This document shows positions 7,534 to 56,983 of a DNA stretch of 64,000 nucleotides, one piece after another; positions within the stretch are counted from its first letter, which is position 1, and each line of letters starts with the position of its first letter. The DNA comes from Methanothrix sp. GTDB lineage: Archaea; Halobacteriota; Methanosarcinia; Methanotrichales; Methanotrichaceae. The stretch is taken from assembly GCA_029907715.1 (NCBI GenBank), contig JARYLI010000001.1, forward strand, positions 124,001 through 188,000. Direction: 5' to 3'. The notes under the pieces are model-generated. The model was not told the origin of the DNA and did not search any database. It saw only the letters and a program-made list of their open reading frames with translations. The translations under genes were made by a program, and so were the position numbers.

Positions 7534-7653
7534 GCCCTGGAAAGGATTCGAAGCGCTGTTTCTAAGGCTGCCCTCCTTCCGACCGCATTTCCCTTCCGGT
7601 TCATGTGCTCGAACGTTGAGATCCAAAACTTGCAGCCATGTAGGAGTCTCCGG

Positions 7654-8095
7654 TATTTGCTCAATACTGTGAGCGTGATCGAGTTACTGATCAAGTGAAG
7701 CCGCTATGGCGCAGCCGTTCATCCAGAAATCTGCATTGGTCATCGGTTAAGGATTTTATGTAAATATATTAAATTTGACAAATTGAGATCTCCCCATAGT
7801 GAAGAGTTTGATTCAAATCGACCGCCTGTGGACTTGAGTCCTGATAGCAGTACTGAGGCGAGATAAGACTATTAAGTCCAAAGCTCTTATCCATCTGATA
7901 ACTTGACCCAAAGAGGCACCAGTCACGCTATGCGTTCCTTCCGAGGGTATGAGTGCATTCAGCAACCGGCCCGCATGTCCTTCAAGTTGCTGAATACATA
8001 AGAGCGAAGTCCAATTCTACACATGTCGATCTTAACCGATGACGCATGCAGAAATCTGCGAAGAGGGCAGCTTACCTCAACGTATCGAGCATGTT
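7654..8095. repeat. Nested inverted-repeat elements A(B(C)), about 440 bp
   Basis: Three short elements are stacked here. Element A starts near 7654 (TTTGCTCAATA) and resumes at 8049 to end near 8095 (TATCGAGCATG). It is split by element B (about 7735-8048) whose ends are TGGTCATCGGTTAAG and CTTAACCGATGACGC; the 11-mer CAGAAATCTGC is present on both sides (7724-7734 and 8049-8059). B is itself split by element C (7882-8006) with the flanks AAGTCCAA on both sides. The uninterrupted B and A sequences can be read at 10935-11246. No ORF of transposase type is present. The rest of the 7534-8228 gap shows nothing else I can name. Confidence 0.85.
7882..8006 (+). repeat. Element C copy 1 (about 125 bp, inside element B)
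   Basis: Begins AGCTCTTATCC and ends CATAAGAGCG, so the ends are a near-perfect inverted repeat. The inner part holds a second inverted pair (GCATTCAGCAAC / GTTGCTGAATAC). It is flanked by AAGTCCAA on both sides, an 8-bp target duplication visible by comparison with the uninterrupted element B at 11083 onward. Same family as the copies at 12029, 32129, 37793, 47715 and 56862. Confidence 0.9.
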
Positions 8096-8228
8096 CATTT
8101 TCCACGCGCCAGGATAAAACGAGGGTAAAAACGCAAGCTGCAGAGCAACGCACGCAATTATAGGAAAGCAGGCAGAAGATCCCTCCCATTCAGGGGAAGG
8201 GACGAAGTCACACGGAATTGAGAACAGA

Positions 8229-10697: not shown

Positions 10698-10934
10698 GCT
10701 TTCTCTGAACTTGGGCGCAGTCCTTCCTTTCGCTCTCATTTGCTCAGCAACTTGGAGTTCGGGGAGCAGTTGCTGGTAGCACTCATCTGCTCATCAGGAG
10801 TGCGTTGCAGGGTCAATGCACCTGCGAAGTTGCCGATAGGAGCGCTCCTATACAGCTTTGCATCGTGAGGTTGGTGATTTGGGAAGCAAATCGGCAACAT
10901 GCAGCCGATAAAGTATAAATTTTAAATAAAAATT

Positions 10935-11246
10935 ATTGGTCATCGGTTAAAGATTTTATGTAGATATATTGATCATGAAATTTGACAAATTGAGCTCGCG
11001 CCAGATTGGAGAGTTTGATTCAAATCGACCGCCTGTGGACTTGAGTCCTGATAGCAGTACTGAGGCGAGATAAGACCATTAAGTCCAATTCTACACATGT
11101 CGATCTTAACCGATGTGTTTGCTCGATATCGTGAGCTTGCTTGAGTTACTGCTCAAGTGAAGCCGCTCTGGCGCAGCCGTTTATCCAGAAATCCGCCAAG
11201 AGGGCAATTTACCTCAACGTATTGAGCATATTCTAACCGATGACGC
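10935..11246. repeat. Element B interrupted by element A
   Basis: Element B begins ATTGGTCATCGGTTAAAG and its inverted end is TAACCGATGACGCATG. Close to that end it is split by element A (11116-11233). The 9-mer TAACCGATG occurs on both sides of A (11107-11115 and 11234-11242), an exact target duplication. Left part 10935-11115 gives the uninterrupted sequence of the B core, useful for reading the C insertion at 7882. The rest of the 10698-11321 gap shows no gene. Confidence 0.88.
11116..11233 (+). repeat. Element A copy (118 bp) with 9-bp target duplication
   Basis: Starts TGTTTGCTCGATATCGTGAGC and ends CGTATTGAGCATATTC, giving imperfect terminal inverted repeats. It includes an internal hairpin TTGAG-TTACTG-CTCAA. 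Other copies: split around 7654-8095, split around 28986-29213, and reversed at 46105-46222. Confidence 0.85.
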
Positions 11247-11321
11247 ATGGAATACTTCTGCATGAAGACCGGATATCCCCATGCGAGGCAGGCGGTCCTA
11301 TGAATATCTGAGCGTATCGAC

Positions 11322-12028: not shown

Positions 12029-12152
12029 CGCTCTTATCCATCTGATAACTTGCCCAAAGAGGCACCGGTCCTGCTATGCGCTGTTGGCGAGGGAATGGGC
12101 ACATTCAGCAACCGGCCTGCATGTGCTTCAGGTTGCTGAATACATAGGAGCG
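12029..12152 (+). repeat. Element C copy 2
   Basis: 124 bp from CGCTCTTATCC to CATAGGAGCG, same internal order as the other copies (ATCTGATAACTTGCCC, GCTATGCG, ATTCAGCAACC, GGTTGCTGAATAC). No flanking duplication is visible, suggesting an older insertion. It lies in the divergent space between the DJ-1 and Hsp20 genes; the remainder of that 587-base gap holds only the Hsp20 promoter. Confidence 0.88.
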
Positions 12153-28985: not shown

Positions 28986-29213
28986 ATTTGTCAATATCGT
29001 GAGCTTATAGTATTCCGTATAAGTTGATATAATATTGCACGCCACATAAAATCATCTATAAAGTATGACACATCCATTAGATTTTAAATGGATTTACATG
29101 AAGTGACGCAAAGGACTATAATTGAGTTACTGCTCAAGTGAAGCCGGCTATCATCGGGCATGGTCGTTTATCCAGAAATCCGCCAAGAGGGCAATTTACC
29201 TCAACGGTTCGAG
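28986..29213 (+). repeat. Element A copy split by a 113-bp AT-rich insertion
   Basis: The left end of A (TTTGTCAATATCGTGAGCTTA, 28986-29006) and the rest (ATTGAGTTACTGCTCAAGTG from 29121 to GGCAATTTACCTCAACGGTTCGAG at 29213) are separated by an unrelated AT-rich stretch. That stretch shares a 17-mer (29046-29062) with 47871-47887. The remainder of the 28880-29373 gap shows no gene other than the promoter region of the rhodanese operon. Confidence 0.75.
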
Positions 29214-37792: not shown

Positions 37793-37916
37793 CGCTCTTA
37801 TCCATCTGATGACTTGCCCAAAGAGACACCGCTCCTGCTCTGCCCTCCTTCCGGGGGAATGATCGCGTTCAGCAACCTCCAAGCATGACCCACAAGTTGT
37901 TGAATGCATAAGAGCG
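37793..37916 (+). repeat. Element C copy 4 with exact 9-bp target duplication
   Basis: 124 bp from CGCTCTTATCC to CATAAGAGCG, flanked on both sides by ATGTTTGAA (37784-37792 and 37917-37925). This is the clearest evidence in the window that element C inserts by transposition. The remainder of the 37690-38124 gap has no gene. Confidence 0.92.
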
Positions 37917-45897: not shown

Positions 45898-46222
45898 GAA
45901 ACATGCTCAATGCGTTGACATGCGTCATCGGTTAAGATCGACATGTGTAGAATTGGACTTAATAGTCTTATCCTCAGTACTGCTATCAGGACTCAAGTCC
46001 ACAGGCGGTCGATTTGAACCAAACTCTCCACTATGGGGGAGATCTCAATTTGTCAAATTTCGTGGTCAATATATTTACATAAAATCCTTAACCGATGACC
46101 ACTGGAACATGCTCAATACGTTGAGGTAAATTGCCCTATGGGAGGATTTCTGGATGAACGGCTGCGCCAGAGCGGCTTCACTTGATCAGTAACTCAAGTA
46201 CGCTCACGATATTGAGCAAATA
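45898..46222 (-). repeat. Element B followed by element A, reversed, with an A fragment on the left
   Basis: 45919-46103 is element B in reverse orientation (CATGCGTCATCGGTTAAG ... CTTAACCGATGACC). 46105-46222 is element A in reverse (GAACATGCTCAATACGTTGAGG ... CGATATTGAGCAAAT). The end of A also occurs immediately left of B (ACATGCTCAATGCGTTGA, 45901-45918), so B looks as if inserted into or next to an A terminus. The gap 45766-46242 between priL and aroA holds nothing else. Confidence 0.8.
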
Positions 46223-46242
46223 CGGCTTTGTATCACTCCATG

Positions 46243-47714: not shown

Positions 47715-47838
47715 TGCTCTTATCCATATGATAACTTACCCATGGAGGTACTGGTTCTGCTATGCATCCCTGGTGAATGAATGATTGCGTTCAGCAACCA
47801 CATTGTACGACCCACATGTTGCCAAGCACATAAGAGCG
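47715..47838 (+). repeat. Element C copy 5
   Basis: 124 bp from TGCTCTTATCC to CATAAGAGCG, with the usual internal order. No clean target duplication. The 17-mer at 47871-47887 just downstream is shared with 29046-29062. Nothing else is visible in the 47527-47963 gap. Confidence 0.86.
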
Positions 47839-56861: not shown

Positions 56862-56983
56862 CACTCTTATCCATCTGATAACTTGCCCGGAGAGGCAGCA
56901 GTCATGCTATGCGCTCCTGATGGGCGGATAAGTGCATTCAGCAACCTACCGCATGACCTTCAAGTTGCTAATGCATAAGAGCG
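56862..56983 (+). repeat. Element C copy 6
   Basis: 122 bp from CACTCTTATCC to CATAAGAGCG; one A replaces the usual G at the left end and a base is lost in GTTGCTAATGC. No clean target duplication. It lies between the divergent ABC operon and aEF-2. Other than this and the aEF-2 promoter the 56718-57239 gap holds only an orphan GGAGGTAATAAT at 57126 with no start codon nearby. Confidence 0.85.

Follow-up and report, generated by a model that had tools for sequence, protein, structure and literature searches.

Three nested families of MITEs in a Methanothrix-type genome and candidate parent transposases for two of them

The nested block and other copies in the window

The window analysed here is a stretch of 64,000 nucleotides corresponding to positions 124001-188000 of contig C1 of G000, a Methanothrix-type genome of 2,006,954 bases in 55 contigs. 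At 7653-8096 it contains three elements, termed A, B and C, with C lying within B and B within A (Table 1). As stated in an initial annotation made from the sequence of the window, B interrupts A and is itself interrupted by C, and the joins carry exact direct repeats that place the boundaries with base precision. The flanking repeat reported for C is an exact 8-bp duplication. The repeat reported around B is likewise real, but measures 10 bp instead of the 11 bp given at the time, as the additional base belongs on one side to B (its initial C) and on the other to A (the base that follows). When its two parts are joined, A in the block measures 119 bp. The ORF list of the block contains no reading frame of transposase length, which agrees with the earlier remark that none of the three elements carries a transposase. 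The target duplications of the block differ in decay, with 5/8 matching bases for A, 10/10 for B and 8/8 for C, in agreement with a local order of insertion of A, then B, then C.

Table 1. Positions of A, B and C elements and of their target duplications in the window
Feature	Position	Strand	Remarks
A target duplication, left copy	7645-7652	+	8 bp, decayed, AGTCTCCG; register from empty sites in L107/L108
A element, left part	7653-7733	+	begins GTATTTGCTCAATA
B target duplication, left copy	7724-7733	+	10 bp, CAGAAATCTG
B element, left part	7734-7881	+	begins CATTGGTCATCGGTTAAG
C target duplication, left copy	7874-7881	+	8 bp, AAGTCCAA
C element, complete	7882-8006	+	125 bp, starts with A in place of C
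C target duplication, right copy	8007-8014	+	AAGTCCAA
B element, right part	8015-8048	+	ends CTTAACCGATGACGCATG
B target duplication, right copy	8049-8058	+	CAGAAATCTG
A element, right part	8059-8096	+	ends TATCGAGCATGTTC
A target duplication, right copy	8097-8104	+	decayed, ATTTTCCA; register from empty sites
B, second copy	10934-11249	+	split by A near right end (B = 10934-11114 + 11242-11249)
A within second B	11115-11233	+	8-bp duplication TAACCGAT at 11107-11114 / 11234-11241
C copy	12029-12152	+	duplication not clear
A fragment	29119-29213	+
C copy	37793-37916	+	TGTTTGAA duplicated on both sides
A right end, second copy	45898-45918	-	21 bp (TCAACGCATTGAGCATGTTTC), behind third B
B, third copy	45919-46104	-	directly behind third A
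A, third copy	46105-46223	-	complete
C copy	47716-47837	+
C copy	56864-56982	+

The stretch 10935-11246 had been taken as uninterrupted versions of B and A from which the order of insertion could be read. However, A sits in the right end of B there, and because the nesting is reversed, an A-before-B order is not readable from this locus. The sequence A, B, C therefore holds locally at 7653-8096 but not as a general time order, as A-in-B and B-in-C arrangements also occur. A further combination of A and B, on the minus strand at 45898-46223, had been overlooked; the target repeat around its B copy measures some 20-21 bp, about double the usual 10 bp of B.

Size, ends and copy number of the three families

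All three families are non-coding and short, with lengths of 119 bp for A, about 190 bp for B and 124 bp for C. Each has terminal inverted repeats, namely GTATTTGCTCAATA/GAACATGCTCAATA in A, CATTGGTCATCGGTTAAG/CATGCGTCATCGGTTAAG in B and CGCTCTTATCC/CGCTCTTATGT in C. A first look at G000 yielded 74 candidates for A, 58 for B and 171-191 for C, and searches with a single copy as query returned at least 43, 48 and 44 matches, respectively. Complete copies were counted by stripping nested elements one after another in 421 kb of G000, giving at least 46 copies of A, 36 of B and 110 of C; as these 421 kb, about one-fifth of the genome, were taken around matches, the frequencies of copies and of nesting derived from them are biased. 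With at most one mismatch allowed, an 8-bp duplication flanks 25 copies of A (20 exact) and 60 of C (50 exact), and a 10-bp duplication flanks 28 copies of B (23 exact). No clean duplication was found at about 46% of the A, 22% of the B and 45% of the C copies examined. Since each family numbers tens to more than 100 copies in the genome, the nested block is not a product of chance. Other copies exist and A, B and C do not form a fixed unit, so that both outcomes named beforehand as fatal to the transposition reading failed to appear.

The families differ in their distribution. C is present in all six genomes of the genus that were searched and was not detected in the genomes searched outside it, and A occurs in most of the genus genomes searched and in G014. 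The 13-base end of B (at most one mismatch) is found 95 times in G000 compared to 4-9 times in the congeners G001-G003, indicating that B has expanded in the G000 lineage. Unpaired B ends in this end-pattern search mostly belong to B copies that are truncated or cut by contig ends. Four contigs of G000 (C5, C13, C15 and C29) terminate within B copies, and the assembly apparently breaks at this repeat. At another locus, L188 1001-1404 (C15:34704-35107), a copy of A has expanded so that four units, each of about 92 bp, stand in tandem, forming a minisatellite inside a MITE.

Taken together, A and B display all the MITE features that were tested, and C displays them except for ends in common with an autonomous insertion sequence (IS). 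This bears out the earlier view of A, B and C as MITEs and of the block as the result of transposition into existing elements.

Empty sites in close relatives

Judged by the ThiI protein of the window, the closest named relatives are L107 (titled Euryarchaeota archaeon), L108 (Methanothrix sp.) and L109 (Methanothrix sp.; Methanothrix SKW87), with 95%, 90% and 89% amino-acid identity, respectively. In both L107 and L108, the one spacer that was compared is equivalent to that of the window but lacks the entire A/B/C block. The empty site reads GCAGG-ATTCTTCG-CATGCCAGG in L108 and CCAGG-ATCCTCCA-TGTGCCAGG in L107, and the register of the 8-bp duplication of A is set by these two sequences. L107 in turn carries a C element of its own in the same spacer (7969-8093, repeat AAGCGCTGT), at a point that holds no element in the window. 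That each of the two, the window and L107, has an insertion which the other lacks is the strongest evidence of mobility. In L109, a different MITE-like element of about 106 bp lies on the minus strand near thiI (around 7800-8100), flanked by TATA and with the ends GAGGATTCCTA / TAGGAATCCTC.

Candidate parent elements

The initial annotation had proposed looking for full-length insertion sequences with the same termini, and such candidates were found for A and B, but not for C.

In the case of B, the relevant elements are IS4-family insertion sequences of putative ISH8 type. G010 contains a transposase frame of 438 amino acids followed by the right end CATGTGTCATCGGTTAAG. Among the kin of this transposase, in G055 and in other Methanotrichaceae, are elements of about 1.45 kb whose ends match those of B fully or almost fully. 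The IS at L287, for example, is 1445 bp long and both of its ends are identical to those of B. The 1.4-1.5 kb relatives are flanked by 10-bp duplications (AAATAATATT at L287, GCTGGCCATT at L286 and AATTCTTCTT at L312). Furthermore, the transposase at L243 matches the NCBIfam model transpos_IS4_1 (E 5e-70), and its Y(2)R(3)E(6)K motif is exact (...YGARWEVEILFKELK...). The published hallmarks of ISH8 are CAT ends, a T at position 15, a 10-bp repeat and a length of 1400-1800 bp (PMC2266710, Table 1), and all of these are found in the IS elements of the relatives that bear B ends. G000 itself contains short transposase remnants alone, at C17:31820, C15:12609 and C5:77043, the latter two of which lie close to B-type ends. 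An ISH8-type IS4-family element is thus the candidate parent of B, an assignment that follows from shared ends (in the range of 14-18 bp for A and B) and from the length of the duplication.

For A, the best parent candidate is an IS66-family element of 1532 bp in G017, which has the ends GAACATGCTCAATA / GAATATGCTCAATA and is flanked by a duplication of 8 bp (GTCTTCTT, L337). Its single long ORF contains the DDE_Tnp_IS66 domain (PF03050, E 1.6e-21, above the Pfam cut-off), and scores 144 bits against the NCBIfam model transpos_IS66, under the curated cut-off of 180. The accessory genes of typical multi-ORF IS66 members are absent from this element, and since its 1532 bp contain one long ORF it is labelled IS66-like, single-gene type. 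A copy of A in G014 bears on both sides the end found in the G017 element, and in G021 the same type of end adjoins the C-terminus of the transposase at several contig ends. No relative of the G017 transposase was detected in G000-G005. The putative parentage is suggested by shared ends and duplication length, and not by internal sequence or activity.

No parent of C was found, whether by a search for its end pattern or by examination of ISL3 and DDE_Tnp_1 elements, and the mechanism proposed for C is for this reason read from its ends and duplications only. Elements with an ISL3 transposase, and the DDE_Tnp_1 elements examined in G002, have ends other than those of A, B or C. The CGCTCTTAGCCAT repeats of other genera lie within genes that read as TnpB-like and not at IS ends. 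The transposase between two halves of C at C12:3600-4870 of G000 resembled a parent of C at first sight, but it belongs to an IS5-family element that has ends of its own (GAGGATTCC) and is inserted in C. On C12 (L278 1100-2367), the IS5-family element within C has a broken transposase and the ends GAGGATTCCTAT. The element of about 106 bp in L109 possibly represents a fourth family, derived from the IS5-family element of C12.

Derivation of C from an ISL3-family element is doubtful. Its 8-bp duplications and the GCTCTT core in its first bases resemble the ends at ISL3 loci of other Methanotrichaceae, but the likeness to these GGCTCTT-type ends is limited to the six bases GCTCTT, and an ISL3 transposase was found in none of the genus genomes searched (G000-G005).

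Nesting and choice of landing sites

In the 421 kb of G000, C-in-B, B-in-C, B-in-A, A-in-B, C-in-C and C-in-A nestings were found, the last with five insertions in four hosts. As these include opposing orders, the active periods of A, B and C must have overlapped. About 15% of the window is non-coding under a simple ORF rule, and about 20% of this non-coding DNA consists of MITEs, so that stacking alone needs no special explanation. In agreement with this, the overall frequency of nesting roughly equals that expected for insertion into non-coding DNA. The excess over chance is the repeated use of identical landing sites.

One site in B (AAGTCCAA or AAGTTCAA) is occupied by six C copies, and a neighbouring site, AGACTATT, holds two more, one per orientation. 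A single origin, with one entry of C into B and later spread of the combined unit through B's ends, would account for six copies of C at one site, and the outer duplications around such units are intact (e.g. CAGAAATCTG, GATGCTTGTC and AATCATAATA), as would be expected if they can move. As the sole cause it is contradicted by the inserts themselves, which fall into three subfamilies that are only 70-79% alike and of which one is reversed, and by the B parts of the two units of the same type and orientation, which are only 88% alike. These features imply that C entered this site in B independently four times or more, for which the chance bound, at one of 181 positions, is 2.5e-6 (four of six). 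Nests that are wholly copied composites are accordingly quite improbable, though some copying of B-with-C units may have occurred alongside separate insertions.

The centre of C, in turn, is occupied by B in four or more copies, and both orientations occur. A matrix built from 22 non-nested B insertions ranks the C-centre site first of 114, so that B's own target preference explains its presence there. The target preference of C, by comparison, explains AAGTCCAA in B poorly (rank 21 of 181). It has been considered whether the families form a mutual network of landing pads, each holding the preferred target of another (B into the centre of C, C into AAGTCCAA in B, and both B and C into the ends of A). 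Such a network is rather unlikely; if it existed, it would steer insertions away from genes and allow high copy numbers to persist in a compact genome.

Proposed origin of the nested block

We consider it highly probable (about 0.9) that the MITE families A, B and C are unrelated to one another, that a different DDE transposase mobilized each of them in trans, and that the nests arose by successive insertion. B would be mobilized by an ISH8-type IS4-family transposase that generates a 10-bp duplication, A by an IS66-family transposase and C by a third enzyme, the latter two generating duplications of 8 bp. At 7653-8096, A would have entered the intergenic spacer, followed by B into A and lastly by C into B. 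The parent transposases of A and B would since have been lost or have decayed in G000. Nesting would be common because MITEs fill much of the scarce non-coding DNA and because the B transposase appears to favour 10-bp sites that are near-palindromic, such as the one close to the centre of C. The boundaries, the duplications, the copy numbers, the empty site in two relatives, the several nesting orders and the candidate parents that match A and B in their ends and in duplication length are direct observations, from which the transposition events themselves and mobilization by parents now lost or decayed are deduced. The doubled target repeat of B at 45919-46104 and the share of copies at which no clean duplication was found weigh against this reading.

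That A, B and C are instead functional intergenic modules under selection, such as structured RNAs, regulatory elements or chromosome-organising repeats, would fit their high copy number, the presence of C in every genus genome searched and inverted repeats that are able to fold (z -3.7 for B and -2.7 for A), but is very improbable in view of the fixed-length duplications at most copies, the presence/absence differences between close relatives (in one spacer), the ends that A and B have in common with transposase-bearing elements and an Rfam scan of the window that returned tRNA alone and no match for A, B or C.

Under the preferred reading of successive insertion, three MITE families are described in a methanogen genus for which the open-licence literature searched describes no specific MITEs (Methanothrix/Methanosaeta), and two of them are tied to candidate parent transposases. 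Furthermore, the reciprocal nesting implies an overlap in time between the activities of unrelated MITE families, and the elements explain differences in an intergenic spacer between close relatives as well as some assembly breaks.

Comparison with known systems

Archaeal MITEs of Sulfolobus, Halobacterium and Haloquadratum have been reviewed (PMC10969869), and the families described here resemble them in being short, non-coding and multicopy, with terminal inverted repeats and target duplications. The words IS66, IS4 and nested are absent from that review, whereas here candidate parents are available for two families and nesting is reciprocal and site-biased. With the ISL3 family, C has in common the 8-bp duplication and the GCTCTT core near the end, but is unlike it beyond these six bases. 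The IS that bears the ends of A combines the DDE_Tnp_IS66 domain with an 8-bp duplication, and 8-bp repeats are also found in IS66 members (PMC3281130); this candidate parent is compact, with one gene in 1.5 kb, and A at 119 bp codes for nothing. B shares the CAT ends, the T at position 15 and the 10-bp duplication with ISH8, a subgroup within the IS4 family (De Palmenaer et al. 2008, PMC2266710). The matching IS elements in relatives are about 1.45 kb long and carry Y(2)R(3)E(6)K, whereas B has a length of about 190 bp and codes for nothing. No apparent target specificity was seen for ISH8 in that study, in contrast to the palindromic preference over 28 B copies observed here, which provides ISH8-type insertion with a target preference that can be measured.
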